Shown: positions 10,521-62,889 of the stretch, piece after piece | How the letters are laid out: the number at the start of each line of letters is the position of its first letter | Position numbering within the stretch: the first letter of the stretch is position 1 | Assembly: GCA_963575745.1 (NCBI GenBank) | Contig: CAUYUJ010014327.1 | Location: 252,946-316,945 of the forward strand | Source of the DNA: Prorocentrum cordatum | Taxonomy: Eukaryota > Sar > Dinophyceae > Prorocentrales > Prorocentraceae | Direction of reading: 5' to 3' | DNA length: 64,000 nucleotides | The notes under the pieces: generated by a model | Databases searched by the model: none | Seen by the model: only the letters and a program-made list of their open reading frames with translations | Told to the model about the DNA's origin: nothing | Made by a program: the position numbers and the translations under genes

Positions 10521-10959
10521 CCAACCCTTCATCCATGGTCCATGGCGACCACGAACCGCTCGACAGCCTCCCAAAGCCTCGGACGAGACCTCGAAGGGGG
10601 GGGTAACGCTCGCCCTACACAACGAGCAGGGGTTAAGGCAAACGAACAGCCCTGCGTCGGCTGCTGCTGTGCAGAATAGAACCGTTCTGCCGTTCTGCCA
10701 CGAGGTGGAGGAGGGGGGAGGTGAAAGAGGAGGGGCGACCGGGAGAAGGACTTTTCAACATCGACAACTGTGACGCGCAAGACTGGATTGGCAACATGCA
10801 ATCAAGACCGGGGTAAATATTTTAAAGCAGTCTGATTCGAGACCCAAGAACCCATCAAAACAAACCCAAATCGTGCAACTGTACTTCGGGTTGATGCCCT
10901 TGAGGATCCGCGTGGTCCACATGGACTTCCTCTGAGGGCTCTTCCTTAAAGAACACTGG

Positions 10960-12440
10960 CTGGATATGTTCGACTTCTTGAATGAGCCTATCCCGCAATG
11001 CGCAGCACGGTGGGTGCAAGTGCGGAGCAAGCTACCATCACTGCGCGGCAGACTTCTAAGGAAATGTCCAATACGCTTCATTTCCCCGAAACCACAAACC
11101 CCAGCATTCACAAGACATCCAGGGAGGGGCGGGCGGAGCTGAGACCGAGAGACCTTGCGACAGAACGAGCAACGCCAACGGCCAAGCATAAACTCCCACG
11201 AATGCGGGGGTATGCCGGGGCGCTCGGCCCTCAGGCCGGGGGGCAGGCGCCTCGAATGGCACATCCGAAACATGTAGCTTGGGCCACTTACACGGACGTG
11301 CAGCAACGAGCTTGCGAACAGTAATGGCAATCAAAAGAACATGTTCCAGGGCCTCCTCCTGCTCGTCAGGGGTCCTGGGGCGCAGACGGTTACCCGCCTT
11401 CGCAGCCTCGTCGACTTGAACATTCCCCCTTCCCCAGGCCACCCCCGCGTCGGACGGGCGCTCCTCGTGAAGAGACACGCGTGCCATAACTTACTGCTCC
11501 GAGCGGATGCGGTAGGCAACGCGCTGTCCGAGCAATAGGAGCTCCCGCGCGGGTCCCCTGATAATGAAATTGCTCGCGCAAGGGTCCGTTGGCCTGCGCA
11601 GTCCGCATAGTCCGCGCGGACAATGCAATTGCTCGGACTGCGCGAAAGTTCGCACAGTCCGTGTGCAAGCACTCGGGCCCTCGAGGAGCTGTCCCGCGCA
11701 ACGGGGCGCATAAAACTCCACCGCCTTGGGCGCGCGCGGGTAGCCGCCGTGCACTGCGCCGAGAGCCCGACCCAGGGAGCGGTCGGCGCCGCCAAAAACG
11801 GCCAACCCCCAGGCCGCCCGACTGTGTTCTGACACCGCGCGGCGCGACGCACTGTAATCCAGGAAGAGCCCCCTGAAACCAGCTGTTCATCCGACGCCTC
11901 CCCCGCGCCCCCGCACTGCCGGAGCACCTTTCCCGAGGCGTCACGGCGGGGCCAAGCGTTGCCGGGATGGGGGGATATGGCGCGGGTCGACTCTACTTGG
12001 TAACCCAGGCACCGAGCACGAAATCTTGTCCACGAAGCATCGCGCCCGATCACTCGCACGGCCGCCTTCCCTGCAGGCGAGACCTCGCTTGACGGCGTCG
12101 AAGCAGGGGCGGGGGCGCTCCGAGGGCAATCCCTCGGAGGCCCGACGCCCAAAAAGCGGCGCAGCACGGCTCGGCGGAGCATGATGTTGTGAAGCGACCA
12201 GAACTGACACCAGCAAGAACGATCTCGTCGCCGAAGTCCGCCTGCGAGGTTGACCCAATCAATGGGCTCCCACCTGGCCCTGCGCAGGCGCGCGAGCATG
12301 GCCGGAAAAAAGAGCGCGTCACCGGAGGCCAGGGCATAGGGGGCCGCCTGTACCAAGTGATCTTCCAGGCCTGAACGGCGCTCAGGGAACGTGGAACTCC
12401 AGCGACACAAACACACGCAGGAACACACCTGCACAGGCAA
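10960..12440 (-). pseudogene. LINE 2 ORF2 3' part: RNase H end and C-terminal zinc motif, broken
   Basis: At about 11427-11392 the minus strand reads RGNVQVDEAAKAGNRL, matching the GN-x-x-(A)D-x-x-A-K-x-G end of LINE RNase H domains (GNMWADVFAR in LINE 1). In another frame, near 11177-11150, it reads RWRCSFCRK, and around 11020 RTCTHRAAHCG, resembling the two Cys pairs that close dinoflagellate LINE ORF2 proteins. Upstream the 369-codon frame (11331-12440) has protein-like stretches such as ARWEPIDWVNLAGG. Several frame changes are needed to join these parts, so it is not functional. Confidence 0.5.
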
Positions 12441-12699
12441 GGCACTCCACAGCTCTTTCGCATGCCTAACGAGAGGCGCAACGACCGCCAGCCACGTGGG
12501 ATCGTTTCGGTCACGACCAGGCTCGCGAGCGATCTACCCTTGCAGCTGGGCCCGATGACCGGCCCCGCCTGCTGGCGGATTCCGCGGGGCCCCCCATCCG
12601 AAACCCCATGGGCCACGGACCAGCACTGGGCCCGAGGCAGAGGCCCCGAGACCCAAATCTGTTTGGCATGGTGGGCGACCTATTTCTCCATGCATGGCG

Positions 12700-13510
12700 C
12701 GCCCTGGAGGGGGTGGACGACGCGGCCCCTGGCGCTGCCGCGCCAGGACGGGGTCGTCGATCTTCGCGCGCCTGACCCAGCGATGGGGGGACTCAACCGG
12801 GCAATTCTGCGGGCGCCCCCGACGCCTGACCCGCGATGCCGCGAGTGTGAGCCTGGGCTTCCCTCCAGCGACTCCGCCCTACGGGTTCCCGCGCGGTCGG
12901 CCAGTTCCTGCGTGGGCGCGCCCCTCTGGTCAGCATCTGTTTCCTCAGCGTCAGCCCAGGGCCGCAACCTCGACGGAGCCATCGCACTCCATGTAAGTCC
13001 CAGAGACGACGACTGAGCAGGGGTCGGTGGCGGCATGGCTGACGCGCTAGAGGGGGAAGGCGACGCAGCCCTTCGTGCTGCTGCGCCAGGACGAGGTCGT
13101 CGCCCTCCACGTGGTGGACTCGCAGCGCTAGCAATGCCTGTCGCGCACTCGTCGCGAAGCTCCCGGCTGGGCAATTCTGCGGACGCCCCCAACGCCTGAC
13201 CCTTCCGCGATGCAGGGGGGCCCGCGCCGCCGCAAGAAGGCCCAGTCTGGGGACCTGGAAGCCGACGCGGCAGCCGATGCCGTCGCCGCCCTGGCATCGC
13301 GGGCATCGCTGGAAATGACGCTCCCGCCAGGCGCAGCAGTGGCCATGGAAATGCGCACCCCGCCAGTAGGCCGCTAACGTGAGAGCTCGGGCTTCCCTCC
13401 GGCGAGCCCACCCTGCTGGGCCCCTCGCGGCAGGCCAGGCCCGTCGCGAGATTCGTTCGCAGGGCAGTCTCTGCCTACTCAGGGCCAGCCCAGGTCTGCA
13501 ACTGTCTCGG
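12700..13510. repeat. Diverged tandem duplication inside LINE 2
   Basis: Sequence of about 12705-12990 recurs, with insertions, in about 13050-13510. Shared blocks include GCGCCAGGACG, GGGCAATTCTGCGG then CGCCCCC, CGCCTGACCC, GGGCTTCCCTCC and CAGCCCAGG. The duplication explains the repeated VRRIAQ/ARRIAR segments in the overlapping minus-strand frames. Confidence 0.6.
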
Positions 13511-14832
13511 GATAAATGGCGCACTTGCCGCCGCGGCAAGGGGCGTTGGCGCCACCGAAGCGCTGCGCGCATCAGCGCCGGGTGCTGGGGTAGATGCCAA
13601 AGTAGCCTTCGCCGCGGCACAGTAACTGAAGCGCGCTGCACGACTCGCCCCGCGGCTCGGCCACGCCCCCGCCTCCTTGGGGGCGCCCAGCTGCCGGCTA
13701 CACCCGCGGCTGCGCATCCGCCTCCAAGCGTGCCTAGCCACGGCCGCCCCCTTGGCCATCTCCGCCGCTGCCACTGACGCCATCGCCGACTGCGTGAGGG
13801 CAGCGTCTCCGCCGGCGGATGGGGGGGGCCCCGAGGCCTCGGGCGGGCTGCCGGTCGCCGCCGCCAGCTGGCCCGTGGGCCACCACCGCCCGCCATTTCC
13901 CAGCAGCATCTGGCTGCGCGGCAGGACCTGGATCAACGGCGTCATCATCGCCACTGGCGCGCGTGTTCTTGGAGGACAAGCGCGCGCTCCCGCAGGGCCT
14001 TCTGCTCAGCCTGCAGCGTTTCGTCCTGCTGGCGAACTTCTCCGAAGAAGGTCCCCGCCGCGCTGTCGAAGGCCTCCGACATCTGCTTCTCGCGACCTTT
14101 CGCCGTCTCCAAAACCCGACGGGCCCAGTCCGTCGAAATCAGCGAAACCGGAAAGCCTATCGTCGTCCAAATCGATGCCGTCGAGCTTTCCGTCCACGAG
14201 CGTGGTCGGCGCGGGTTCAACTGGCCCGCTGCCGTTGGCCGCCGCTGAACTCGACGCCGCAGCGGCTGGGGCCCCGCGCCCCGCGGCGACCTCCGAAGCC
14301 GCCGACTTGCACTCCGCTTCCGCCGACCCGCGCTCCTCGACCATGGTCACCGCCGGACTCTCCCGGCATTCAATTTGCACCAGCACCGCGCTATCCGACT
14401 CGAGACGCCCAATGGCATCTCGAACTTTGGCGCGGGCCTGGCTCGCGCGGACCTGCGCGGGCGTCTCCGGCGACTTCGGCTTGCCAAGTCACCCAAGCTG
14501 CCGGCATTTTCTCGAGGCCGCCGTATCCCCAAACGTTTCGGCCAACCACGCCATCGACAACGACTCCTCCCGTGACCTGGCTGCTGACTAAGGCTTGGTC
14601 TTGGCCACAACTGCCGATTTGTACTTTGCCGCCCTGTCTCTGCCCCCACGAGATGAGCTTCGGCGAAAGCCGCGGGTGCTTGCGCGGCGTCGACGTCGAG
14701 CTTCTCCAAGGGCTTGGCACAGCTGCCAGCACAGCGGAAAGGACGAGCTCTAGCCAACACCAGCTTTTCGGCCTCCCTGCCATCGCTCGCCCAGTGCTTG
14801 CACCACTTCAAGCGTAGGACGATTATCGTCAC
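13475..14832 (-). pseudogene. LINE 2 ORF1-like sequence, frame-broken
   Basis: Starting near 14832 the minus strand has WCKHW and, about 20 residues later, FRCAGSCAK, a spaced Cys arrangement reminiscent of the N-terminal zinc finger of LINE 1 ORF1 (WYCKSC...CAKC). Further on, in other frames, come an acidic segment (LDGIDLDDDRLSGFADFDG) and a helical Gln/Glu/Arg-rich segment (EVRQQDETLQAEQKALRER). At least three frame changes are needed. Assignment rests on position, order and these motifs only. Confidence 0.45.
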
Positions 14833-15277
14833 AACCTCTTCTCCCTACAGAGCACTTTCGCCAGCGAAAAGGTCTGCAACAAAACAACGCAACCAAACCA
14901 AACTTTGTTTAAATTTGAGCCGCGGGTTGCATTGCAAAGCGCGCGCGGCCGAAGTCGCGCACCGCGGCCGCGCGGCCGGCAAGGGCGGGCGTGGCGCCGA
15001 GCGACCGCTGCCTGCAAACATCTAAAGCGGGGGCCCACAATGACCCACATATTGCCTGTCAGTGAGACCCACTGGAAACATCGGCTGGCGTCCAAGGCAT
15101 TTGTGTAGCCGCCTGGGTGTCCTCTAGGCGCGATTCTGGCCGTGAGAATATACAGCAGGTGCACGATTTGCCCCCCCGGCGCCGACATGTTTTCTGCAGG
15201 CGCCGCACCACGAGTGTTGTATGCTTTTTCGTGAGCGTTTTTGTTGCCCGTTTCTGCAGCGCGCTGTGTGAATGGAT

Positions 15278-15341
15278 TTCACGTGCCCACGGTGGCCGCG
15301 TCGCGCATGAACGAGCGACCCAGCCACCGTGGGCACGTGAA
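15278..15341. repeat. Perfect 19-bp inverted repeat
   Basis: TTCACGTGCCCACGGTGGC (15278-15296) is perfectly inverted at 15323-15341 with a 26-base loop. The arms include CACGTG. It lies in the 5' part of the LINE 2 insertion and is unusually well preserved for so decayed an element, so it may be a later insertion. Confidence 0.85.
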
Positions 15342-15846
15342 CAGAAACTGCTGTGGATTGCGCGAGCGTTGCGTGATATATGCGAGCGAACGGCTCTCGC
15401 TAGAATATGATATAACAGACATGCAATGTAACTTCACACTTATTTGTAGACGGCCTTCTTGCTCCTGTGCGGGAAAGAGGTTCTGAAGTTTCGCGCAAGG
15501 ACAACGCAAACCGTATGGACGCCGAACGCGATGGCATACGCCCGTTGTCGCCACCGTTGCCAAGGCCCTCACGACCCGCAACAGTCCATGTCGTGGCGAG
15601 ATGGCGGTCTCCGTGATGAAAGGCGAGCACTTGTCTGCCCTGAGCCACGACGAGGACAGCACGGTTTTGGGTTCGCGTCCTCCTCAACCGCCAGTGCCAG
15701 GCGGGGGAGGGCAAGTGATCACGGCACGCGACAACCGCGGAGAAAAACACAGGGACGACAATGCACCGTCGCCCGCTGAACATGGGCGAACAGCTGGGGC
15801 TGCGTGGGACAAAAACAGCGGCCTTGGCAGCCCGAGCGCAAAAAGC

Positions 15847-15868
15847 CTTGAGCCAAAACGGTTACCGA
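15847..15868 (-). other. Degraded dinoflagellate spliced-leader relic (5' end of LINE 2)
   Basis: The minus strand reads TCGGTAACCG then TTTTGGCTCAAG: 19 of 22 positions agree with the DinoSL consensus (D)CCGTAGCCATTTTGGCTCAAG (mismatches at the third, seventh and tenth bases). It ends exactly where the putative 15-bp TSD starts. Confidence 0.65.
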
Positions 15869-15883
15869 CGAGCGGGAGGAGGA

Positions 15884-23032: not shown

Positions 23033-23441
23033 ACCCCAGACCTCCGGTGACTCTGGTGGAACAGGCCGCGGCACGAGCGGCGGACGCATGCGCGAGGACG
23101 GGGGGCTCTCGAGCGGCGGTCTGGGGCGGGGCGAGGAGACGGAGCGGAGGACGAGGAGAGGGGGATGCGAAGGAGAAGGGGGCGACGAGGGGAGGTTTGT
23201 GGGAGAGAAGGAGGTGAGGACAGTGAGGACAGTGCCGAGAGCGTGCAGGTGAATCACGAACACGCCTCGAAAAGGAAAAGGGACGAGAGAGAGACCCTCA
23301 TCCAACAAGGGGCACTCTCCGCGCCGTGCGCGGGGCCGGGGAGCAACGGTGCGAGGGTCACTAACGGCGCAACGCCGGGCAGTTCCCACACGCACCGCGC
23401 CCCCCGTTGGGAAGACAAACCCACGCCTGTACTTCCGCCCA

Positions 23442-23773
23442 CTATGCAGGTGCCTCGGGCTCGGGCGCCTGCTGCGGCATCGCAGGCTCCCCGAGCTCCG
23501 AGAAGACGAGCGGCTCGAGGGGCTCGCCCGTCTTGGGATGCAGGCCCCTTCGAGCCTGCTCGAGCATCGACGCGATAGCTCCGTCCCCCCCACTCCCAGC
23601 TCCCGCCGACCCCGTCCCAGCCCTCTTGCACGCTCGAGACAGGCCGACCGACAGCCGATTGGGGCGCACAGCGTGCGCCCCGCACTTTACACAGATCAAA
23701 ACTCGCTCCAAGGCCTGGACCTGGTGTCCTGGCCCGACCTCCTGGGGGTCGCAAGCACGGGAGGCCAGAGACT
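23442..23773 (-). pseudogene. Frame-shifted C-terminal zinc motif of LINE 1 ORF2
   Basis: Downstream of the ORF2 stop, a different minus-strand frame (open from 23957 to 23442) reads GHQVQALERVLICVKCGAHA near 23726-23667, then a Cys about 14 residues later and LEQARRGLHPKTGEPL. A C-terminal H...C-x2-CG...C block of this kind is a usual end of dinoflagellate LINE ORF2 proteins, and the decayed LINE 2 has a counterpart. It is out of frame with ORF2, so a one- or two-base indel between about 23774 and 23870 probably removed it from the protein. Alternatively it is reached by recoding. Confidence 0.55.
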
Positions 23774-26700
23774 TCAACGACGAAGCCGTCGCTGCAAGCC
23801 TCCAGCAGGCTCGACACGAATCGCTCCCCCAGCGAAGACCACAAAGTCGTGATCGGTCGGCCGCCGCGGACGGCGGGGCCGAAAGACAGCCTTCGGAGGC
23901 GCACGGAGTATCGGGGTGGAGAGGCGGGCCACGCGCTCGGCAGCCCAGGCCAGACAACGCATCGTGTCCTGGGCCCGAAGCAGAGAAAATTTGTGAGCCT
24001 TGACCACGGAGGTGGATCCAAGGAAATCTGCCGCAGCCACGCGGGCGAAAACATCAGCCCACATATTACCGAAAAAATGCTCCAGGGGCTCCTGGGAAGC
24101 CAGGCAGGCATCAAACCCCTCGATGACGGTCCGATGGGCCTTCGTCCAAACAAACACGGGCCTGACAGGGTCGCCTCTATACAGCTCGTGGATGCTCCGC
24201 CAGATGGACGCGTGAGGCGCTCTGGCAGAAGCATGACGACCCTCCCAGGCCATTCCCTCGACCTGCAGCTGTAAATGATCAGTCACGTACGTGGCTGGCC
24301 TCTGGGCCCTCTGCAGGGCCTTGAGACCAGCAACGCGCTCGGCCCTGGGCACCGTCTGGATAGGGCCCCCCAGGCTCCCGAACAAAGCTTTGCATGGCCA
24401 CAGGTCTCGGGTCAATGCCACGACGGCCCAGCCACAGCGCCGTTCCTCAGGGAAATCACTTTCAAGACAGGACCCGTCCCCGTACAACTTCGACGGCCAC
24501 GGCATGTCGATCGCCCCCCACTCGCGCTCAGCCTGAGCACGTGCAGGCAGCGGCCTGAAAACAGGCCTCAGGGGCAGCGCGTAGAGCACGTCGATGGCCG
24601 AGAAGTCCTGCACCTGGCCCCCGTCGCGCCACGGGGCTGCCTCCAGGATGTCCTTCCTCCTCTTGGCCACCTCCTCGGGGTACGGCTCCGTCTCCTCGTC
24701 CTCCTGCTGCTGATGCAATACCTTGCAGCCGAAGATCTCATGCTCGAGGTCGCAGCAGGCCTCCCCGCAGAACTCGCACGAACCGTCGCCGCCGTAGCCA
24801 GCCTGCATGCGGCGCTGCGGCGACCAGAACCCGTTGGACTGCAGCTTGGCCAGAGCCCCTCTGTGGCCAGGCGCCAAGGAGGCGTGTCCCAGTCGAAGCG
24901 CACGAAGCCACACATGCTGCTGCCGCCTGCCGTCACCATCGGCTGGGGGCGCCTCAGGCAGCTGGTCGAGGATACGATGGCTCTGCCAACGGTCGAGGCT
25001 GCGACGCAGGAAAAACAGCACCTCACTGGGACAATACTGCAGCAAACTGATATGCAGGCCCTCATCGTCAACCAAGATTGTAGAACTTGCCATGTTCCAG
25101 TTGACTCTCCTGAGGGACAACCACAAGGCCGACAGCGGGCCCTGCGCACTGGCCCACGTGACGTGAGTGTGGCGGGCTTCCCAGGAGTCACGCAAGCCCA
25201 TCCAGGCCCGCTGCAGTCGGGAGAGCGTCACACGCCCATCCCACACCCACGCCGCGTACTGCCCCACGATGCTGAAGGTAGCGTGGAATATGGGGTCGAA
25301 GCTCCACTGCTGCGCGGCCAGGTACAGCGTCAGGGAGCCCGACCCCTTGTAGCCACAGAAGACGCCAGCCATGGTCCTCATCTGCTGCAGCTCCGTGTCG
25401 CTGATGCCGCTGACCGTGGCTCCGTGTCCCACGGATGGCAGCACGCCCGTGGCCCAGAGCCGAGCCGCCCGCTGTCGTCCTGCTCCCTTCTGCAATGCTC
25501 GAACGCTGGCCTTCTTGCCGTGCATGGCCTTCAGGCGCACCTTCTGCACGGCCCTTGTGGCCGACGACCCAGCTAGGTCGTGGCCAAGATACCGCATGTG
25601 CCTCCTGCCAGCGATCTTCAGCAGCCTAGCGTACTTCTGAAAGTGGTAGCTGGTGCGCCTGGACGTCGTAAGGTGCCCAGACTTATCCATCTGCAGCACC
25701 AGCCCGAGGGGCCGGACAGCCCTGCAGAACGCACGAGTGGCAATGGCCATTTCTCGCACCCCGCTCGGGTCGTTGCCGACCCAGCACAGCGCGACGTCGT
25801 CCACCAAGTCCTTGGGCTGAACCTGAGGAGCGACCGACATCGTCTGGCGAATGCTGCGAGTCAACAACACCATGAGAAGCGTAGTGGCGTGGGTGCAGCC
25901 TGCCAGGATGCCCTGATACGCCCTGCGCGCCACTGAATACGAAGAATACGAGTACACCGAACGCAGCTGCTGGTACATCTGCACAAGCATGAACGCCATT
26001 CGCATAGGGTATCCATTGGCCCTGCACTCCAACAAAATGGCATCATGCCTGACCAGCTCGTAGCATTTGAGCATGTCCAGCAGCACAATGATGGCGTCGT
26101 CATCGCACAGGGTCGCCATCTCCTTGGTGAGCGCCAAATCAAAGGCCGCATCACTCGACGACTTGCCTCCAGTGTGGCCCCAGACCTCTGGGAGCGCATG
26201 GGCCTTCTCCCACGCTGCCGAGACAGGCCGCCTCGCCCGTCCCCAGATCCTGACCAGCGTGTTCATCAGCACAATCAGGCGCTCCCCACCCCCTGGCTTG
26301 GGGAGTCTCACGAGCTTCGAGAGGAATCTGCCGTCTGGCCACAGCAGGAGGTGCTCGCACCGCTCGAAGAGGCGCGCCATGGCCGTCAGCGCCCCGTGGG
26401 AGAGGTGCTCCATGGCCCTGGGCGCGATGTTGATCTGCCCGACGCCTGTCTGCCAAGAGAAACAACGGATTGCCTTGAGTACGTCGGCCGCCTCAAGCCT
26501 TGGCAGCTGCTCCCAAGTGTCAGCATCAACAGGTCGGCGAGCCAGCTCACCGCCATGCCGCACCCAGAAGCTTTCCCAGTATTCAAGCTTACGATCAGCC
26601 AGTACGTACCCATGTTGTAGCCCATTGCCTCCGTCCACGATCTCCTGGAGAGCCTTGGGCTTCATGAATCGGTGAGCTCCCTTGGCTCCAGCCACAAAAG

Positions 26701-28282
26701 CTGCCTGCGCCCACTGCCTCCAGCTCTGCATCACGGCCTTCTCATGCTTGGCCTCAGCATCGGAGGAGATACTCAGGATGCGGTCGACCTGCTGCTCGAA
26801 GTCTGCCTGCGCTAAGGCAAGTATGCCACGCGAGAAGAAGCCGACGGCCTCGGCGTCCAGGTGCGGCCAGACTCCCTTCCTCCGCCAGATTCTCTGGAAG
26901 AAATTCTCGCACTCCAGCAGGTGGCGCGCCGCCTTGGAGTGCACGGCGTCCCACGATAGGTCCTCGCCTGCACGTCGCGGGGGCTGGTGTCGCTGAGCTC
27001 TCGACCGAGGCCGACCACCATCGGAGGAGAGACCAGCCACTCCGACGACCTCCGCAGCAGGGGGTGCCCCATCGCCCAGGCCAGGCACTCCGTCGACGTG
27101 CGCCTCGCCGACGCTGCCGAGCTCGAAGACCTGCTGCGGGCGAAGCTGGAGCACGAAGCTCTGCAAGGCCACTCGAACCCTCCTGAGGTGACGAGCCCAG
27201 CGCGCAGCCTGCGCCCAGGCCTGGGTGTCCGCCGACCTCCTGCTCCAGGCACCTTTCACGACAGGGTGAAAACTCGCCAGCTCGAAGGTCGGGGGGCCTG
27301 GCACCGTGGAGTACCCCGCCACGTCCTTCACGACGTCGTAGCGGCCCCGCAGCTCGAACTCGATGCCGCTGAGCACGACGTCCCAGGCCCTGGTGATGCC
27401 CTCGCTGTCCGACGCGCTCTGGATGATCGCCAAGATCGGGTCCCAGTCGGGGGGGAACCTCGCGCACCCCGCCGCAGGCGGCCTCCGAAAGCCGCGTGGC
27501 TCGACAAGCCTCCTGACCTTCGCGTCAAAAGCCGTGGCGGAGAGCTCCATGGTCACTGGTAGATGCGGCCACGTCTCCGCGTCGACGACCACTGGTTGCC
27601 GAACGCGAGGCAGCAAACGGCAAGAAACCATGAACATGTCAATGGTGCGGCCAGGAAGGCTCTGAAGACAAGTCGGCTCTCTCGGCGCCAGCACCACGCC
27701 ATTGGCCGACTGGAGCCAGGACAACGGGCCGAGCTCGCCTACCTCCATGTTGAAGTCGCCTCCTACGATCCACGGAACGCCCATGGCCTCCAGCGACCTG
27801 ACATACTGGTACAGCTTGTACAGCATGGCCAGGTTCTCGGGCGACAGCTTGACGTCCACAATGAAATAGCACGACAGCATGACGAAGCCGCCCTTCACCC
27901 CAGCGTGGACATGGGCCGCCATCATCCTGCCTTCCTGCAGCACGTGACTGTCCAGGCCTGGGGGTTTGGTGATGACCACCCGCAGCGGGGCCAGCACCGC
28001 AACCCCGCCTCTGCTGCCAACTCCCTGCCCAGGTAGGGCGGGCTCCCATATACCATGGTACCCAGCAGCTCTTACTTTATTCTGCAACTTCGCCAATGCA
28101 TCGCCCTCGGCCTTGGCATGATGTTCCTGCACCGCGATGCATAAACTCGAGCACGTGGGCAGGAAATCGACGAGCGGGCCGCCCGAGGACACGTTCACGG
28201 TGGTGATACTTGAAACCGAAGCCATGGTGCGACAAAGGAGAACGAACCACACAAGACACGCAAAACATCGCCGTGGAGCCAT
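23774..28282 (-). CDS. LINE 1 ORF2: endonuclease / reverse transcriptase / RNase H polyprotein
   Basis: 1502 codons. The start is placed at the ATG one base after the ORF1 stop (TAG-C-ATG). N-terminal exonuclease-endonuclease-phosphatase domain (about residues 25-250): QEHH near 51, SRGGVAVL, WIVGGDFNME near 170, IDMFMVS, and TWPHLPV near 240. Reverse transcriptase (about 650-900): RLPKPGGGERL, the catalytic Asp in LLDMLKCYELV, GILAGCTHATTL, and the LVDDVAL active site at residues 828-829. C-x2-C-x8-H-x4-C zinc motif near 1168-1185. RNase H (about 1265-1412) with the acidic set in YGDGSC, RAERVAG, VTDHLQ and MWADVFAR, plus KAHRT. It would nick the target, prime on it and copy RNA to DNA. All key residues are present; only the C-terminal tail looks frame-shifted. 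The frame is open upstream to 29539, but that part overlaps ORF1 in another frame. Confidence 0.93.
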   Translation of the reverse strand: MAPRRCFACLVWFVLLCRTMASVSSITTVNVSSGGPLVDFLPTCSSLCIAVQEHHAKAEGDALAKLQNKVRAAGYHGIWEPALPGQGVGSRGGVAVLAPLRVVITKPPGLDSHVLQEGRMMAAHVHAGVKGGFVMLSCYFIVDVKLSPENLAMLYKLYQYVRSLEAMGVPWIVGGDFNMEVGELGPLSWLQSANGVVLAPREPTCLQSLPGRTIDMFMVSCRLLPRVRQPVVVDAETWPHLPVTMELSATAFDAKVRRLVEPRGFRRPPAAGCARFPPDWDPILAIIQSASDSEGITRAWDVVLSGIEFELRGRYDVVKDVAGYSTVPGPPTFELASFHPVVKGAWSRRSADTQAWAQAARWARHLRRVRVALQSFVLQLRPQQVFELGSVGEAHVDGVPGLGDGAPPAAEVVGVAGLSSDGGRPRSRAQRHQPPRRAGEDLSWDAVHSKAARHLLECENFFQRIWRRKGVWPHLDAEAVGFFSRGILALAQADFEQQVDRILSISSDAEAKHEKAVMQSWRQWAQAAFVAGAKGAHRFMKPKALQEIVDGGNGLQHGYVLADRKLEYWESFWVRHGGELARRPVDADTWEQLPRLEAADVLKAIRCFSWQTGVGQINIAPRAMEHLSHGALTAMARLFERCEHLLLWPDGRFLSKLVRLPKPGGGERLIVLMNTLVRIWGRARRPVSAAWEKAHALPEVWGHTGGKSSSDAAFDLALTKEMATLCDDDAIIVLLDMLKCYELVRHDAILLECRANGYPMRMAFMLVQMYQQLRSVYSYSSYSVARRAYQGILAGCTHATTLLMVLLTRSIRQTMSVAPQVQPKDLVDDVALCWVGNDPSGVREMAIATRAFCRAVRPLGLVLQMDKSGHLTTSRRTSYHFQKYARLLKIAGRRHMRYLGHDLAGSSATRAVQKVRLKAMHGKKASVRALQKGAGRQRAARLWATGVLPSVGHGATVSGISDTELQQMRTMAGVFCGYKGSGSLTLYLAAQQWSFDPIFHATFSIVGQYAAWVWDGRVTLSRLQRAWMGLRDSWEARHTHVTWASAQGPLSALWLSLRRVNWNMASSTILVDDEGLHISLLQYCPSEVLFFLRRSLDRWQSHRILDQLPEAPPADGDGRRQQHVWLRALRLGHASLAPGHRGALAKLQSNGFWSPQRRMQAGYGGDGSCEFCGEACCDLEHEIFGCKVLHQQQEDEETEPYPEEVAKRRKDILEAAPWRDGGQVQDFSAIDVLYALPLRPVFRPLPARAQAEREWGAIDMPWPSKLYGDGSCLESDFPEERRCGWAVVALTRDLWPCKALFGSLGGPIQTVPRAERVAGLKALQRAQRPATYVTDHLQLQVEGMAWEGRHASARAPHASIWRSIHELYRGDPVRPVFVWTKAHRTVIEGFDACLASQEPLEHFFGNMWADVFARVAAADFLGSTSVVKAHKFSLLRAQDTMRCLAWAAERVARLSTPILRAPPKAVFRPRRPRRPTDHDFVVFAGGAIRVEPAGGLQRRLRR

Positions 28283-28283
28283 G

Positions 28284-29471
28284 CTAGGCAGGGGTAAGCC
28301 TGGGCCTCTTGACCTTGGCACCCCAACGCATGAAGATCTCCTCCAGCCTGTGCTTCTCGCCCCCAGCCGCAACGACTTCCTCCATGAACTCAGGGTCGTC
28401 GGAGAAGGCAGATGGCTGTGGTGTGCGAGGCGCTGCCGCGTCGTCCTGCCGCTCGGCCTGCTCGACGTCGGGACCAGCCTCGGCCCCAGCATCAGCCTGC
28501 GCCCTCTGGGCAGCCAACTTTGCCGCCTCCTCCTCCTGCAACCTCTGCAGCTCCTGGAAGCTCGCCGTGAGGCTGCCCGACAGCTGGTGATCGGCGCCCA
28601 GGCTCTGGAGCAAGATCCCGAGGCCCTCGAGCGTGGCACCAACCCCCTTGATCGGCTCGTCGAGCGACGCCTTGTCGCCAGGCGTCGGAACCTGCCCTTG
28701 AAGCCTCTTGCGCTCCTGGTCCAGCTCCTCCATGCTAGCGTCGAGGGCCGCCAGCTTGTCCCGAGTGAGCCGTTCCTTCTCCTGCAGGTCGCGCAACTGC
28801 GCCTGCAGCCCATCGAGCTTGGTCTGCTGGTCGTCGCGCAGCTTCTGCAGCCTGGTGAACTGAGCTCCCATCTCGCGCAAGCGCTGTCCGAGCGGTCGGG
28901 ACTCCGCCACCTTAGCACGCAGCTCGGCCTGCTCGGCCAGCAGCTTGTCGCGCGTGGCCACGACCGACGGCTCGGTGATGCCCTTGAGCTTGCCGATGAG
29001 GTCGCCGACCTCGCGTAGCCTGTCCTTGGCGACGGACTCGGGGCCGTCTCCGTCCGCGGCCGGCTCCATCTGCACGTCCTCCCCGCCAGGCGGCGGCCTC
29101 TGCACAGCGGCAAGCCGCTTGCGGGCCTCGGCGAGCTCGGACTTGAGCTTGGCCACCTTGACGGAGTCGTCCCAGTAGCCGTTGCCGCTGCCGCCCTGAT
29201 TGCCCTTCTTCCGCTGGGAGGGGGCCGAGGGCTGGCGCACGCTGTGGAAGACCAGTCCCTTGCCCAGCTTGCACTTCGCACACTGCCGCGCCTCTGCATG
29301 ATTCCACCACGGTCTCCCCGAGGGCCCGCAGCAGCTCTTGCAGTACCAAGGAAGCGCCTGCTCCGAACGGTAATGCGGCGGTGGCATCTCCACGACACCA
29401 GGCAGCAGCACACACGGTGGGCCGTGGCAGCGCGATCTGGAAAGGACTGGGTGTGGGCGCCCAACTCCCAC
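28284..29471 (-). CDS. LINE 1 ORF1: zinc-finger, coiled-coil RNA-binding-type protein
   Basis: 395 codons ending in TAG one base before the ORF2 ATG. Residues 43-67 hold a four-Cys zinc motif (WYCKSC, then CAKC). Residues about 95-260 form a long Lys/Glu/Leu-rich coiled coil (KVAKLKSELAEARKRLAAVQ, EELDQERKRLQGQ). The acidic, helical tail ends FMRWGAKVKRPRLTPA. This matches the usual ORF1 role in LINEs, binding and packaging the element RNA, though no RRM or gag knuckle is seen. An alternative start is the Met at residue 29 (MPPPHYRSE). The upstream 68 bases to the spliced leader are the 5' UTR. Strand and frame are supported because the alternative frame here gives only Arg/Ser-rich sequence. 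Confidence 0.85.
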   Translation of the reverse strand: MGVGRPHPVLSRSRCHGPPCVLLPGVVEMPPPHYRSEQALPWYCKSCCGPSGRPWWNHAEARQCAKCKLGKGLVFHSVRQPSAPSQRKKGNQGGSGNGYWDDSVKVAKLKSELAEARKRLAAVQRPPPGGEDVQMEPAADGDGPESVAKDRLREVGDLIGKLKGITEPSVVATRDKLLAEQAELRAKVAESRPLGQRLREMGAQFTRLQKLRDDQQTKLDGLQAQLRDLQEKERLTRDKLAALDASMEELDQERKRLQGQVPTPGDKASLDEPIKGVGATLEGLGILLQSLGADHQLSGSLTASFQELQRLQEEEAAKLAAQRAQADAGAEAGPDVEQAERQDDAAAPRTPQPSAFSDDPEFMEEVVAAGGEKHRLEEIFMRWGAKVKRPRLTPA

Positions 29472-29539
29472 GGTGAAAGCGAGCGGTGGTCTGGCCGCGG
29501 ACTAGCGGTATCCGTGCGGTCCCCAGGGGAACCAATCAT

Positions 29540-29561
29540 CTTGAGCCAAAATGGCTACGGA
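29540..29561 (-). other. Complete dinoflagellate spliced leader (5' end of LINE 1)
   Basis: All 22 positions agree with the DinoSL consensus (minus strand: TCCGTAGCCA then TTTTGGCTCAAG). It is followed at once by ATGATTGG, the first ATG of the ORF2 frame, and preceded exactly by the TSD. Confidence 0.97.
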
Positions 29562-29577
29562 GGGAGAGAAGGAGGTG

Positions 29578-37083: not shown

Positions 37084-37259
37084 TTTGGTTCAAGTGCGAG
37101 CCGCTTTTTTTATTTCGTTTTTTGTTTCCAAACACAAAAAAAAAAAACACAAAACAACTCATCCTGCCACAAGTACGAACCGCGGGCCCCAATGGCGCGT
37201 GCTCGCGCGCAGCCCCGGGGGCCGCCTCGAGTGCCCTGTGACAACCGGCTGTCTTTTGT

Positions 37260-40200: not shown

Positions 40201-41050
40201 AGTTGAACAGCGCCCCAATGACCTCATGAAATTTCGTGATGCATGTTATGCTTGGGGGGGCTTAGCTGTGCTCAGCGCGAGGCCCTCTGTGACGCCCTCG
40301 CTGCCCTTCGCCCCACTCCCTTCAAGCTGTGGGTTATCTTCACCACCCCTCTCCCTCTGATGTCACCTGGGGGGGGGCTTTTTTGTTTTCCAAGGGAACT
40401 GCGGCTCGCGTCGGCCACTGGGTCCCCCGTCGTTTCCTGAGCCCCCTGAAAACGCGAACCTGGCCATGGCTTGTTTGTTAACAGTTGTGAGATGGCAGTG
40501 CTGTGGCCTGCCCTCTTCATCCTTGCAGCTATTGCCCCCCATCCCTAAAACCATTGAAATGGAGCGTCCGACACGCAAGTGATGCGTGGACGTCCTCTCA
40601 CGCTGATTTGTGGCATGTTGCGGTGCGTGGCAGGCGGTGCGGGGCAGGTGGCTGGCCATGAGGTTGCTGTGTGCCTGGGAGGTGCTCTACGCCCTTCTAC
40701 TAGGACCGTACCATATTATTTGATTATGTGAGCCCTGTCCTATTGATTAAGTTTTGTACGAAGAGCGGGTCCCCTCCCCACATGCTCAATCTTGGCATGC
40801 TCGTGCACACTGCCCCTCGTACAGTCGAAATTGCTGGTTTTACAGCTGGCATCATCCCTGCTGGGTCTGGCATCCTTGCTAGGTTCATGGAATCGGTGCC
40901 CTGGGTTAGGATGTACTTGTCTGGCCCACCTTTGTTCGTGTGATGATGATGTTGCCTAGTCCCAGCAGGGTGTTGATCACGAGGATATGTTTTAACTCTT
41001 TCGTTCCTGCTACTATTCAGCTTGTGCATGGCCCATTGGGGCCCGTGGTC
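37260..41050 (+). pseudogene. Unidentified coding-like stretch with broken frames
   Basis: Plus-strand segments in shifting frames read like ordinary protein: ICLSCQGTQVSDFTRRDSEQ (after TTCGCAG, near 37266), DLEIDEAEMAVSDEEVRKAA (near 37600), EADAALAEAAEDLDRAKTN (near 37880), ATELDALRKLHLQAALAADE (38325), VHIWLRRDVAEGIDYLVASE (near 40140) and FTAGIIPAGSGILARFMESV (near 40840). The part from 39.4 kb on has lower GC and almost no simple repeat. The order suggests one or two decayed multi-domain ORFs, perhaps a retroelement, but no polymerase, protease, integrase or capsid motif was recognised. It lies within the 8.9-kb DHHC intron, on the opposite strand. Confidence 0.35.
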
Positions 41051-43261: not shown

Positions 43262-44418
43262 CAACAATTTCACAGATGGAGGGCAGGTGGTTTTCAAAAT
43301 GTGGTTCTGAGCGCGGCGAACATTCGTAGTAAACATTTGCAAGGGTTTCACGGATTGAGGGCGGGTGGTTTTCAAGCTGCGATTCTCGCCTCAGCGTCGC
43401 GCACATTCGTTTCTAACAAAGTGTAAGAGCTTCACGGATTGAGGGCGGGTGGTTTTCAAGCTGTGGTTCTCGCCTTAGCGCCGCGCACAATCTTTTCAAA
43501 GTTGCAAGAGCTTCACGGGTTGAGGGCGGGTGGATTTCAAAATGTAGCTCTCGCTTCAGCGCCGCGCACATTCGACAAAGCATGTAGGAGCTTCACTGAT
43601 TAAGGGCGGGTCGTTTTCAAAATGTGGATCTTGCCTCAGCGTCGCGAACATTCGTTTAAACATGTGCAAGAGCTTTACGGAGTGAGGGCGGTTCCTTTCC
43701 AAAATGCGGCTCTCGCCTTAGCGCCGCACACATTCGTTTTAAACATGTGCAACAGTTTCACTGATTGAGGGCGGTTCCTTTTCAAAATGTGGTTCTCGCC
43801 TTAGCGCCGCAAACATTAGTGTTTAAACCATGTGCAAGAGTTTCGCGGATTGAGGGCGGGTGGTTTTCAACATGTGGTTCTCGCCCGAGAACAGCGCACA
43901 TTCGCTTTAACACATGGCAAGGAGTTTCAAGGATTGAGGGCGGGTGGTTGTCAAAATGGGGCTCTCGCCGTAGCGCAGCGCACATTATATTTAACATCTT
44001 GCAATAACGTCACAGATTGAGGGCGGGAGGTTTTCAAAATGTGGTTCTCGCCTTAGCGCCGCGCACATTCTGTTCAAACATTTGGAAGAGCTTCACGGAT
44101 TGAGGGCGGGTGGATTTCTCGCTTTAACGCCTAGCACATTCGTAACAAATGTAAGAGTTTCATTGAGAGGGGGCGGGCCGTTTTCAGAATGTGGCTCTCG
44201 CCATAGCGCCGCGCACATTCGCTTTAAACATGTGCAAGAATTTCACGGGTTGAGGGCGGTTCCTTTTCAAAATGCGGCTCTCGCCTTAGCGCCGCGCACA
44301 TTCGTTTTAAACATGTGCAACAGTTTCACTGATTGAGGGCGGCTCCTTTTCAAAATGTGGTTATCGCCTTATCGCCGCATACATTCGTTTTTAAGCATGT
44401 GCAAGAGTTTCTCGGATT
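43262..44418 (+). repeat. Satellite array, about 14 copies of an 83-bp monomer
   Basis: Monomer: GTTTCACGGATTGAGGGCGG, GTGGTTTTCAAAATGTGG, TTCTCGCCTTAGCGCCGCGC, ACATTCGTTTTAAACATGTG, CAAGA. Monomers are about 75-90% alike; one has an internal deletion (about 44094-44156). Monomers 6-7 (GGGCGGTTCC and GTGCAACAG variants, from about 43672) match monomers 13-14 (from about 44240) more closely than their neighbours, so a block of some seven monomers (about 570 bp) has itself been duplicated. The array lies in the 4.4-kb DHHC intron. Confidence 0.92.
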
Positions 44419-57240: not shown

Positions 57241-57305
57241 CTCGGACCCCACACCTGGGAGGCCCAGAGCCTGCAGTGTGGAGGCGCACCGTGGGCGAGC
57301 CTCAC

Positions 57306-58095: not shown

Positions 58096-58212
58096 TGGCC
58101 CCCGCGGGGCCCGAATGCATCCATATCCACAGCCCGCCGAGGCCTCCGAAGCTCGATCTCCCGGGCTTTGGCCATGGATGAATCCCCGCCTCAGAGCAGC
58201 CAGAAACTTTCC

Positions 58213-58315
58213 GAGGCCCGCGCGGATTTCTTGGATCAGCGCTGGCCACGGGCGTCTGTCGCACGAGCTGAAGGGGGGTCCGCGCGGACTTCCTGGATCG
58301 GCGCTGGACCCTGGC
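58213..58315 (+). repeat. Family F arms in tandem
   Basis: CCGCGCGGATTTCTTGGATC then AGCGCTGG at about 58218 and TCCGCGCGGACTTCCTGGAT then CGGCGCTGG at about 58280. Both are left arms of family F, without the right arms. Confidence 0.55.
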
Positions 58316-59179
58316 GTTATTCCTGTCGGACCTGGGTCACCAAACTTCGCGCACCACGCCCCGCGATGCGCGACGCGCGGCTATCCTCGCGCCCTCGCGC
58401 GGCCGCCCTGGAGAAGGGCGCCTCTCCAACCCGAGCTGAGGACGCGCGAGGCGCGAGTACCTTCGCGCCCCCTGGGAGTGACCTAGGGTTCTGTTGTTCC
58501 AAGTGTACTTCGGACCCAGATCCCCAAAAGAAAATTCGAGCACCCAGAACGCTGGCGAGACGCTGGCGCAGTGTCGAACATCGCCTCCCAGAACCCGAAG
58601 CGTGCAGACTTGCCCGGGGATGCCGCCCTTCGGGGCCCCCCAGTTTCGACGCTCTTTCCGGGTGCTCGAAATTCCTTCTGGTGGTCAAGGCTAAAGCGGG
58701 GTGGAACATCATCAACCTGGGGGGACGGGGCGCCCCTCGAGGACTCGGATACGGGAGCGTGGGCGAGCGGAACGCGCCGAGGGGTCGGCGCCGGGAAGGC
58801 GCCGCTGGGCACACGGTGCCGACCCAGGCAATCCGCTCGCGGAGTTCCGAACGTTCAAACTCATGCAGTGCTGTTCTTCTTCCAACCTGAGAGACTGCGG
58901 TGGGAGGGGAGGTTGGTCAGGGGGGGAACATCGACCTGGAATCGGCCATTCGTCGCCGATGGATCGGCGACCGAACTCAGAGAGCAAACCCTCGCGTTCC
59001 TGGGCGGGGCTGGGGCTATCACACCCTATTCGGCGATCAATCGGCGATTGGGGGTCGATGCGTTCCCCCCTGAGCCCATCCCCTGCTATCGCTGCCCCGG
59101 AGAACTCCGGTTTGTAGGTGACGATGTGGCCGCTGCCCCACGTCACCTGTCGGGCGACGCGCAGACGCAAAGCCAGTCA

Positions 59180-59420
59180 GCCTCAGATCGGGACGTCGGG
59201 GCGCATCGGGATGTCGGATCGCATTGGGATGCGCGCTGGATCGGGCCGCATCGGCACGGAGTCGCGCTCTAATCGGATCTGCTGCGCCAGGAAACACAAC
59301 AACGCCGTGCAGTCGTTCGTCGGGCCGCATCGGATCTTCGGAGTTGTGGAATCGAATCGGATCGAGCTGGCCGGAATCGACTCGACATCGAATCGGATCG
59401 GTCGAACCGCAAGGAGCCCT
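59180..59420 (+). repeat. ATCGG-rich repeat (family H)
   Basis: GATCGGGACGTCGGGGCGCA, GCCAGGAAACACAACAACGC and GGAATCGACTCGACATCGAA, sharing the middle block with 7740-7770. Confidence 0.55.
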
Positions 59421-60747
59421 GCCTGTTGGCCGCGCGCAGAAAGGGGGTGTGGCGAGGGGGGCGCCAGATTCAATGAGCGTGGGGAGCGTTGGGCCCTCCT
59501 CCGTGCTCAGTGCTTCTCCTTCCCTCCTCCTCCTCCTCCTCCTCTTCCTCCTCCTCCTCCTCGGCATCATCATCATCCTCCTCCTCATGATAACCATCCT
59601 CATGGTTCTCCTCCTCCTCATCATGCTCACCGTCGCCGCGGCCTCCTCCTCCTCCTTTTGATCCTCCTCCTCTCCTCCGCCTTTTCTCCACCTCCTCATC
59701 TCCAGGCGTGGGAGACTGGTCATCCTCGTCCTCGTCGTCGTCCTCCTGCTCCTCCTCCTCCTCTCCTCCTCCTCCACCTCCTCCTCGTCCTTCTCCTCGT
59801 CCCCTCCAGGCGGGGGGATGGGAACTGAACACAAACAATGAATTAGGAAAACGACACCAAAAACGCCAAAGACCGATGGGTCAGAAAGCCTAGAAACAAA
59901 AACATGGAACACCGAAAGAAAACAACAACTAATGAACTGCGTAGTCACCCCGACGCTCTCACAGGGAAAGTGCTATCAGTTGCTTCTTGTTGTTTTCTCT
60001 GGCATTGTGTGGGCTGTTCAGTCCTGGGTCTGTGGTTTCTGTGTTATGCGCCCCTAGTGGCTTTGTATTGCTTCCCACCCACTCTAGCTGGAGGAATGGG
60101 AAGAACTGGAAGATGATAACGAGGACGATCGGGAAGGATGAGGAGGGAGCAAGGGATCGACGATGACGAAGAAGAATGAGGAGACGGAGCAGGGAGGCGC
60201 GAGAGAACGGAGGAGCGCCGCTGAGAGGGAACGAGAGCGGCTTTTTTCCCAGCCCCCTGGAAGACCCTTGTGGGGGCCCTGCCTCTGCTCTTGGGCGTGG
60301 CTGTGCTGCTGGAGCCCGTGCGCCTCCCGCTCTACCGCCTATGCCCTCTATCATGTTCCATCTCCTCCTCATGCTCCTTCCCCTCGTCATGCTCCTCCTC
60401 CTCCTCCTCCTCCTCCTCCTTCTCATGCTCCTCTTCCTCGTCATGCTCATCGTCGCTCCGACCTCCTCCTCCTCCTCCTCCTCCTCCTCCTCCCTCTCCC
60501 CTTCACGTCCCCCTCTCTCCACTTCCTCTTCTCCAGGCGTGGGAGGCTAATCCTCCTCGCCCTCCTCCTCCTCGTCCTCCTCCTCCTCCTCCTCCTACTC
60601 CTCCTCCAACTCTTCGTCCTTCTCTTCCCCTCCAGGGGGGGATGGGAACTCTTTTTTTTGTTCCCCCCCCCCCGGACGGTCTCCAATCGCCGCGCGCGGC
60701 ACCCCGCGCGTGCGCAGCGCGCGGGCCGCCGCGCCCGGGCCCTCCGC

Positions 60748-61746
60748 TCACACCTCCAGCACGAGGAAGTCGCTCTGCCCGCCGCGCACCACGCGGGCCG
60801 CCGGGGCGCCGTCCCGGAGCCCGAACGGCGGCGGCAGGCCGCGCTGGTGCCGCAGCACCACTCGGCGCCGGGCGCACGCCACGGCGGCCTCGAAGACGTC
60901 CTGGGCGATGGGGCGCAGGTTGGCCACCCGGTGCAGGAATGCGTCCTCGGCGGAGGCGCTGCCGAGGTCCATGCAGGGGTTCAGGTACACCACGTCTGGC
61001 CGCTCTGCGGGCGGGGCAAGGGCGCGGGCGCTCAGCAGCTCGAGCGCGTCCGCATGCACAGCCCGCACGCGCGAGGCCGGCTCCGACCACTCCTCGCCCT
61101 GCGCCGCCAGCCGCCGCAGCCCGAAGTCCAGCAGGCACGCCAGCGGCGCCGAGATCTCGCACGCGGTGAGCCTGCACCGCGCGCCGCAGGCGTGCGCGAT
61201 GCGCAGCGACGTGCCCCCGAGGCCCGCGGTGGCGTCGATGACGTCCCCAGGCGGCGGCTCGCCGGCCGGCGCGACGGCCTGGATCAGCGGCTGGCGCATC
61301 ACGTCGGGGATGATCCTCCACATGCGTGGGTTGACGAACACGCGGCCCCCGCGGCCATCACAGATCTCGTGACGGACCTCCACGCGCTCCTTCCACTTCG
61401 CGCCCCCCACGAGGTACGCCAGGCCGGACCTCGACTCCGCGAGCACGTCCAGCAGGGGCCTCCTCCCGCGGACCACGAGCCGCGCGCCCAGGCGCGCACT
61501 CACCTCGGCCGCCTGCGCCTCGACGTCCGGCGACGGCGCTCTCGCAGTCGTCACGACGAGGTCGCTCCCTGGCGCCGCGGCCCTGCCCGCGTCGAACGCG
61601 GGCAGCCCGCCGCCCGCTGCGCACACGACGGCGCGCCGCCCGCCGCACCGACGGCGCGCCGCCCCACGCCCGCGGGCGCGGGAGCCCACCGCGGAGGCGA
61701 GCGCGCAGGCCGCGCCCGCGCGCGCGCCCGCGGCGGCGGCGCCCAC
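60748..61746 (-). CDS. RsmJ/DUF548-like SAM-dependent methyltransferase (retrogene)
   Basis: 332 codons. Residues 1-60 are Ala/Arg/Gly-rich, perhaps a targeting peptide. Residues about 62-150 (SDLVVTTARAPSPDVEAQAA, RMWRIIPDVMRQPLIQAV) resemble the N-terminal part of bacterial DUF548 methyltransferases. The SAM fold follows: motif I DVIDATAGLGGTSLRIAHAC (168-187), acidic loop TACEIS (194-199), HADALELL (231-238), VVYLNPCMD (252-260) and RRVVLRHQRG (294-303). RsmJ-type enzymes methylate a guanine of small-subunit rRNA, but the substrate here is unknown, and the usual DP of the DPMFP-like motif is NP. Intronless. The ATG nearest the leader (61892) opens another frame that stops at 61551, so either translation starts at 61746 after a leaky start or a frameshift separates them. 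A bacterial or plastid origin is likely. Confidence 0.8.
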   Translation of the reverse strand: MGAAAAGARAGAACALASAVGSRARGRGAARRRCGGRRAVVCAAGGGLPAFDAGRAAAPGSDLVVTTARAPSPDVEAQAAEVSARLGARLVVRGRRPLLDVLAESRSGLAYLVGGAKWKERVEVRHEICDGRGGRVFVNPRMWRIIPDVMRQPLIQAVAPAGEPPPGDVIDATAGLGGTSLRIAHACGARCRLTACEISAPLACLLDFGLRRLAAQGEEWSEPASRVRAVHADALELLSARALAPPAERPDVVYLNPCMDLGSASAEDAFLHRVANLRPIAQDVFEAAVACARRRVVLRHQRGLPPPFGLRDGAPAARVVRGGQSDFLVLEV

Positions 61747-61920
61747 GGCGCGGCCTCCGAGGCCCGCGCGCCGCGCGCGCGCGCGGCGACCCTCGGCGCG
61801 GGCGGCCTGGCGCGAGCCTCGCCCGCCGCCGCCGCACGCGCCGCCGTCGACCAGGAGTGGCGCGGCGCGGGCCGCGCGGGCGCCGCGGCCATGGGAAGGT
61901 GCGGGGCGGAGGGCCGCGCC

Positions 61921-61942
61921 CTTGAGCCAAAATGGCTACGGA
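61921..61942 (-). other. Complete dinoflagellate spliced leader (5' end of retrogene)
   Basis: Same 22 bases as at 29540-29561, with no mismatch. The following transcript sequence is GGCGCGGCCCTCCG. Confidence 0.97.
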
Positions 61943-62889
61943 CGGGGGGACGGGAACTGAGAAACAATGAGAAACTAAGCAATCACTAGGCGAACCAGGA
62001 AACAACGAAACCAACGACCGACGGCTCAGACAACTAACGCACACACAAATAAACACAACAACAAACACACACTGAGTACCCTCCGCCGCCTCCACAGAGA
62101 AAAGGCTGTAAAACTTGGGTCTGTTGGTTGTGGTGTTGCTTCCGTGTGCTTCATTATGTGTTTCAGTCCTCGGTAGGTGAGTGCTGTGTGCTTGCTGTGT
62201 GATTATATGCGTTTGTTAGTTTACAAGCTCTTCCGCCCGCGCAGTTACTCTGCCTAGCCGCCGACGCAGACAAGTGTTTGCTGGTTTCCAAGCTCAAAAA
62301 GCTGAAGCATACAAAGAACAACAGTCAAGCACAACACAAGCAAACAAAATTACACGACTTAGTCATCCCCGCAGCCCCCCACATGGGAAAATATATAATG
62401 TTGTTTTGGTGTGCTTAGTGGTCCCTTGTTGTTTCTTTGCTTAAAATCCTGGATATGTGGTTTCTTTGGTTCAGTTGTTGTCCCTTGCTCTTTTGGTTTA
62501 AACCCCTAGCTGGAATCATAGGAAGAACTGGAACATGATAAAGACAGCGATCGGGACGGATGAGGAGCGAGCAAGGGATTGAGGATGACGAAGAGAAGGC
62601 TGAGGAGACGTAGGAGGAGGAGGAGGGAGGAGCGAGGGCACGAAGGAGCGAAACTGAGTTGGAACTAGAACGGTGCCCTTTGAAACCCTTGGAAAGCTCA
62701 AACCTCCCCGCCCGCATCCAATTTTGGAGCTGCGAGGGGTGGGGGTGGGGCGGCGCTGTCAAAGGAGGCTCAAAGGGCTTTGCAGACGGGCCCCAGGTTG
62801 CTAGGAAGTCGGGCCTGTCGCGGGCGGCTGGTCTAGAGAGGGGTCTGAACGCCACGCCGGATGGCCCTGTATACTTTGTCCCGCGCTTG

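Follow-up and report, generated by a model that had tools for sequence, protein, structure and literature searches.

The stretch of Prorocentrum cordatum DNA described here (GenBank assembly GCA_963575745.1, contig CAUYUJ010014327.1, positions 252,946 to 316,945; 64,000 nucleotides, hereafter the window, numbered from its first letter) contains four matches to the dinoflagellate spliced leader (SL), the 22-nt sequence that trans-splicing places at the 5′ end of mRNAs. Genomic copies of this leader serve as tags for counting dinoflagellate retrogenes. No match was obtained in 100 shuffles of the window used as control, and each of the four SLs heads a retro-insertion, three being long interspersed nuclear elements (LINEs) and one a retrogene. 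Together with copies from elsewhere in the genome, these insertions suggest, with a probability that we put at about 0.8, that the genome harbors non-long terminal repeat (non-LTR) LINEs encoding an endonuclease and a reverse transcriptase (RT) whose full-length copies start with the host trans-spliced leader, alongside retrogenes derived from SL-bearing mRNA.

LINE 1 lies on the minus strand and extends from its SL to its 3′ end at 23217-29561. The exact 22-nt SL (29540-29561) directly abuts a target-site duplication (TSD) copy that is pyrimidine-rich on the element strand (29562-29577), and the second copy, at 23201-23216 behind the 3′ end, matches it at 16/16 positions, as the initial annotation had stated. 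The 3′ end itself carries CACTGTCCT twice, without poly(A). The 5′ leader behind the SL (29465-29539) opens at once with an ATG and continues with a hairpin motif, GGATACCGC-TAGTCC-GCGG, that is common to other SL-headed LINEs. A likely first open reading frame (ORF1; 28284-29387, with the first ATG of the frame at 29387) contains a zinc-finger-like CxxC...CxxC pattern recognized by eye and a coiled-coil-type region, its Pfam matches being weak and under the cut-off. It sits in a frame overlapping the open frame of ORF2, whose region at 23774-28201 encodes an endonuclease followed by the RT and whose open frame extends upstream to the ATG at 29539. This ATG behind the SL was rejected as the start of ORF1, since it is in frame with ORF2 and crosses the likely ORF1 region in another frame. 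The endonuclease matches Exo_endo_phos at 20.6 bits, below the 24.5 cut-off; the RT core (25508-26647) was delineated by a profile seeded with this same core and its homologs, and is assigned via homologs, two of which carry PF00078. The closest species-named relatives of the protein are P. cordatum P0004 (86%) and P0005 (81%). BLAST revealed no second dispersed copy of LINE 1 in the window, and no search aimed at LTRs was made.

TSD-like matches might arise by chance in purine- or pyrimidine-rich tracts, and this concern proved justified in part. By plain flank score, 30.5% of 259 random CT/GA-rich flanks reach the 16 of LINE 1, because simple repeats match each other. The LINE 1 TSD is not a simple repeat (7/13 period-3 matches), and among 2887 purine-rich 16-mers of low period-3 character, six have an exact copy at 2-9 kb, the LINE 1 TSD copies presumably among them; LINE 1 thus stands out among 16-mers that are not simple repeats. 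The outcome was different for LINE 2, a decayed element at 10737-15868 on the minus strand (the 3′ boundary is that of the initial annotation and is provisional) headed by an SL with three mismatches (15847-15868). Its TSD score of 13 is equalled by 41% of the same 259 flanks, and the proposed TSD was rejected as being at chance level, so that the original claim of three insertions out of three with TSDs is unsupported. Its SL and its identity as a LINE remnant stand, the latter by homology to another SL-headed LINE, L051 (11886-11016, E 3e-15; 12661-12444, E 2e-5), which detected LINE 2 where the RT profile gave no match. The fourth SL, absent from the initial annotation, also has three mismatches (37073-37094, plus strand) and heads a decayed LINE with an RT fragment 3.5 kb downstream (40569-40922, plus strand; E 2e-6 by profile, E 4e-6 by homology). 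A TSD was searched for at this SL and none was found.

The retrogene provides the clearest view of an SL junction. On the minus strand, it extends from 61942 to 60651 and comprises an exact SL (61921-61942), an open frame for an S-adenosylmethionine (SAM)-dependent methyltransferase-like protein (60748-61890; PF04445, 45 bits, cut-off 26) and an A-rich 3′ tail (60651-60664), with TSD copies at 61944-61958 and 60636-60650 that agree at 14/15 positions. All three hallmarks of a DinoSL-tagged processed retrogene (5′ SL, A-rich 3′ tail and TSD) are therefore found at 61942-60636. The TSD copy scores 12, a value reached by 11.6% of 250 ordinary flanks, and the case rests on the A-rich tail before the 3′ TSD copy and on an uninterrupted paralog of the target at 59539-60240 (minus strand). 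BLAST aligns 60362-60650 with 59539-59826 (76% over 299 aligned positions) and, upstream, 62506-62673 with 60084-60240 (77% over 168). The paralog reads CAGTTCCCATCCCCCCG and then CCTGGAGGGG where the retrogene locus has the whole SL-to-tail segment. Base 61943 (G), described at first as one base between SL and TSD, therefore belongs to the target, and the junction falls at SL base 1. The joined flanks are identical to the paralog at 329/539 and 229/328 positions, in a tract partly low in complexity, and the paralogy of the retrogene target is therefore old.

Beyond the window, an exact 21-nt SL pattern was searched on both strands of the 4.13-Gb assembly and found 7201 + 7017 = 14,218 times, the reversed pattern serving as control and giving 0. 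The first 70 of 100 listed exact-SL places, in contig order, were taken as a site set, and 20 SL loci, two of which overlap, were read over about 10 kb each. LINEs with RT are present at 12/20 of these loci: seven were recognized by the RT profile (L034, L036, L039, L043, L046, L051, L052), four by RVT_1 (L038, L040, L042, L044), and L050 is counted through its 91% identity to L038. Exo_endo_phos is above cut-off in L038, L042 and L044. RT evidence is absent from the approximately 10 kb read at L035, L037, L041, L045, L047, L048, L049 and L053; L048 has an endonuclease match below cut-off. The RT region of the L038 ORF matches the R2 protein (E 6e-14) and human LINE-1 ORF2p (E 1.5e-13) among PDB sequences; unlike these two elements, the LINEs here have a 5′ SL, a microsatellite target and, where examined, 3′ ends without poly(A).

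Another reading would be that many of these 14,218 SLs are not insertions but SL RNA genes or assembly artefacts. Such genes do carry an exact SL, as at L003, where it is followed by GTACG. This pentamer follows the SL in 0/70 sites, the LINE 1 SL is followed by ATG, and the elements behind the SLs differ from one another, as do their surroundings; SL RNA genes were accordingly rejected as the origin of the 70 sites, and we hold it very improbable that they or artefacts make up many of the genomic SLs. The L003 SL (4354-4334, minus strand) is on a ribosomal DNA (rDNA) contig assigned to a Dehalococcoidia bin; it looks like an SL RNA gene in a protist rDNA spacer, and the bin seems contaminated.

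Copies of the same element show where conserved sequence begins. L038 and L050 share 91% identity over the whole element, SL included, and 92-95% in four segments reaching from behind the SL to the 3′ end, and their flanks are unrelated (46-55% in five segments, which is alignment noise) save for TCC arrays common to both. Likewise, similarity is high behind the SL and low before it in the pairs L061/L066 (0.88 and 0.15), L054/L063 (0.88 and 0.22), L014/L084 (0.87 and 0.01) and L021/L074 (0.83 and 0.03), any likeness of same-family pairs upstream of the SL being limited to the array itself. The sole set with conserved upstream sequence consists of L079, L080 and L081. These three SL-headed insertions are nearly identical, have the same flanking sequence and lie on one contig in a span of about 8 kb, which suggests that an inserted copy was later duplicated in tandem. 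In addition, LINE 1-type sequences were searched for without the SL, giving 103 occurrences of an internal motif and 79 of the start; the SL lies directly before the start in 4/4 checkable cases (C1:660, C206:18353, C473:107679 and the window copy). Together with the uninterrupted target paralog, these comparisons bear out the proposal that LINE copies and a cellular retrogene begin exactly with the SL, and reverse transcription therefore reached the last base of the SL-bearing RNA. LINE proteins may plausibly have moved the cellular passenger, although the retrogene is A-tailed and LINE 1, L038/L050, L040 and L042 lack poly(A).

The SL at the boundary could also belong to the body of the LINE and pass from copy to copy with the rest of it, transcription beginning at SL base 1. 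All checked copies do have the SL in their DNA, and a single SL is usual among LINE copies, 16/18 of the hairpin type described below (type A) having no relic. We nevertheless regard inheritance of this kind as quite improbable, because one and the same SL stands at the start of LINE families unrelated to each other and of cellular retrogenes, and because 7/70 sites have the stack of an SL and an exact relic expected of renewed trans-splicing. Stacked SLs had been predicted after repeated rounds, and they do occur in this minority, the SL being followed by the exact 15-nt relic CCATTTTGGCTCAAG, a form attributed to mRNA recycling in the available part of PMC12014239. If the SL is renewed in each round, its terminal AG would therefore be used more often than its internal TAG.

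In the 24 nt preceding the SL, 42/70 sites have a TCC-type (28), GGA-type (13) or other pyrimidine (1) tract directly before it, against a background of 2.5% (77,078 positions in 30 three-kb loci) and of 3.4% in the window. Under a stricter rule applied genome-wide, the 13 nt before the SL are all pyrimidine (Y13) in 2046 + 1961 = 4007/14,218 cases (28.2%; background 1.4-1.7%) and all purine (R13) in 648 + 697 = 1345/14,218 (9.5%; background 1.0-1.1%), a Y13:R13 ratio of 2.98. This roughly 3:1 bias toward the TCC orientation fits selection for re-expression, but also a strand-specific endonuclease. At the other end, the elements L038/L050, L040 and L042 are joined to an array without poly(A). 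Of the LINE loci that have a 5′ array, 10 were tested, and all 10 also have an array of the same type downstream; in 6/10 its distance from the final coding evidence is 32-117 nt, and element bodies contain 2 arrays in 55,367 nt. The DNA sequence thus shows that insertions have the SL as base 1, that a large share of them lie in (TCC)n, (GGA)n or otherwise pyrimidine-rich tracts, and that an array of the same kind often adjoins the 3′ end.

Target type is also associated with element family. Automatic family clusters contain 57/79 same-target pairs versus 33.9 when shuffled, a value reached by 0/5000 shuffles at one cut. Type A elements (n=18) are found at 16 pyrimidine, 0 purine and 2 other targets; a second 5′ type (n=4) at 3 purine and 1 other; and a third (n=4) at other targets throughout. 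One way to produce such a pattern would be target choice by base pairing, in which LINE RNA is read through into the flanking (UCC)n or (GGA)n. This repeat end would pair with a different array and prime reverse transcription there, and families would thus keep array type and strand. The 3′ ends joined to arrays without poly(A), the downstream arrays of the same type and the family-target association are what it would lead one to expect. The same pattern is predicted by endonuclease specificity, however, arrays around the target explain like arrays on both sides with no need of a tail, and some families are mixed in target; base pairing therefore appears to us a doubtful explanation. As separate observations, two SL-headed insertions in L040 (at 422 and 6277) stand head to tail, the second having as its target the TCC array that ends the first, and the LINE 3′ ends before the TCC array in L038 (5960-6012, CAAGGTTACGTTCG) and L040 (6170-6225, CTCAAGGTACGTTCA) resemble the SL splice donor region of L003.

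A further common feature lies just behind the leader. ATG follows the SL directly in 13/70 sites, with about 1 expected, and a hairpin within 75 nt downstream of the SL was recognized by eye in 18 sequences, namely 17/70 sites and LINE 1, which constitute type A. Segments for alignment were also chosen by eye and cover 17/18 members (14 distinct), L088 being excluded, whose first 75 nt differ from those of L022 at one base outside the hairpin segment. Across these 17 segments, 5/5 pairs have changed on both sides. Pairing holds in 82.9% of cells versus 61.9% when shuffled, and the covariation score is 0.505 versus 0.141, with slid versions at 0.114 or less. Of the 14 distinct rows, 11 leave the outermost pair open, and further pair types are no more numerous than in shuffles (73/500). 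Rfam, ribozymes included, gave no match at gathering score in the window or in 12 loci. A covarying hairpin thus follows the SL in many families.

A stronger competitor to the proposed LINEs is ordinary mRNA recycling, in which any SL-bearing mRNA, that of a LINE included, is occasionally reinserted, the SL having no role in the LINE and the microsatellite preference being due to the endonuclease alone. The cellular retrogene has an identical SL junction, retrogene-like SL loci with similar targets exist (for example L041, flanked on either side by a TCC array), and SL relics in genes are the published mark of recycling (PMC6050394 and PMC12014239, in their accessible parts). Recycling is still compatible with much of the data. 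On the other hand, RT-bearing LINEs occupy more than half of the SL loci read, and diverse LINE families start at the SL with a common covarying hairpin, which looks like a settled architecture. We therefore consider recycling as the whole account to be possible, though less probable than not.

Several points weigh against LINEs that regularly start with the leader. The 70 sites were selected by exact SL, and SL status was checkable for only 4/79 of the LINE 1-type starts found without it. The LINE 1 TSD score becomes unusual among CT/GA-rich flanks only once simple repeats are excluded, TSDs are unreadable within arrays, and no TSD excess was found within 1.45 kb at 30 genomic SL sites; this null result is expected if targets are mostly arrays or the elements are longer, and counts as no support. 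Neither tract class precedes the SL in 28/70 sites, 3 of these 28 being one tandemly repeated insertion. At L036, a downstream array of the opposite type precedes the same-type one. The family-target association weakens at a stricter cut (23/39 same-target pairs versus 14.8, reached by 54/5000 shuffles), and two family clusters, the L009 and L006 groups, have mixed targets. Finally, trans-splicing of LINE RNA and the choice of acceptor are deduced from DNA sequence.

With these points in mind, a mechanism can be proposed for LINEs whose full-length copies start with the leader. Trans-splicing would cut LINE RNA from longer transcripts and place the SL at its 5′ end; the element endonuclease would nick microsatellite DNA; and reverse transcription would proceed through the SL to the end. 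A copy in the TCC orientation would then read (TCC)n-TCCGTAG...CTCAAG, a pyrimidine tract followed by AG and thus a ready-made trans-splice acceptor that could give the next transcript a fresh leader. Use of CAAG at the SL end would account for the single SL in most copies, and use of TAG within the SL would leave the known 15-nt relic. Extended further, retrotransposon, trans-splicing and microsatellite might form a closed cycle in which the LINE gives up its own promoter and 5′ end, the SL and (TCC)n act as acceptor for release and re-capping, and the hairpin steers splicing or assembly of the ribonucleoprotein; this extension is speculative and, taken as a whole, rather unlikely.

Parts of this picture have precedents, cited here from the portions of the papers that were available. 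PMC6050394 describes the DinoSL-tagged retrogenes of Slamovits and Keeling 2008, made by mRNA recycling (see also PMC12014239). They resemble the present insertions in that the inserted mRNA copy bears in the genome, at its 5′ end, an SL or the 15-nt relic. In contrast to those described, many SLs here head LINEs; the junction is exact, the target is a microsatellite, and a hairpin is present. LINE-led retroposition and genic SL relics in dinoflagellates have likewise been published (PMC6050394, PMC10235124). In flatworms, where partial leaders occur at some LTR and LINE loci, the authors suggest integration of SL-bearing retrotransposon transcripts (PMC12582326), so this idea is not wholly new; in that study, the partial leaders are among 597 discarded loci, whereas here the exact full SL forms the first base of the insertion, with family copies and a target preference. 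In Hydra, about 30% of transposable element Iso-Seq reads carry the SL (PMC12220107), which concerns the RNA level only, whereas here the SL is genomic and at insertion ends. The trypanosomatid L1Tc/ingi elements with a 5′ Pr77 are also LINEs of a trans-splicing protist with a common 5′ end, but Pr77 drives unspliced transcripts and holds a hepatitis delta virus (HDV)-like ribozyme (PMC8190864, PMC4035085), whereas here the 5′ end is the SL, with no Rfam family. Non-LTR elements that insert into repeats including microsatellites are known as well (PMC4640811); those are described as having restriction-like endonuclease types, and the LINEs here have the Exo_endo_phos family. In the parts consulted, the genome papers of P. 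cordatum (PMC10666404), Polarella (PMC7245778) and Symbiodinium (PMC8045281) do not describe such a link between LINEs and SLs, and the accessible text of the open-access literature and few subscription papers covered contains no report of dinoflagellate LINE 5′ ends at the SL, of microsatellite targets or of the hairpin. New here are the targeting of microsatellites, biased by strand and by family, and the covarying hairpin behind the SL.

These insertions offer a LINE in which the completeness of the 5′ end can be judged at single-base resolution, and a concrete, testable link between trans-splicing and retrotransposition that suggests the machinery by which mRNAs are recycled. They may help explain why SLs and TCC/GGA microsatellites are found together in a very large genome. 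If a large share of SLs head LINEs, as at the loci read here, retrogene counts need a check of LINE content.

Some observations stand apart. Exact dinoflagellate SLs also occur in two further contigs filed elsewhere. L001, an AT-rich, giant-virus-like IMG/VR contig, has two, in the regions 2766-1936 and 2913-2893 (both minus strand), one of which heads a 254-aa open frame of different composition that looks like host cDNA in a viral contig. The contig L002, from a bacterial bin, opens with (TCA)n followed by an SL (32-52, plus strand) and is probably chimeric or contaminating. In the window itself, positions 43269-44418 form a tandem array of about 13 copies of an 83-bp unit.

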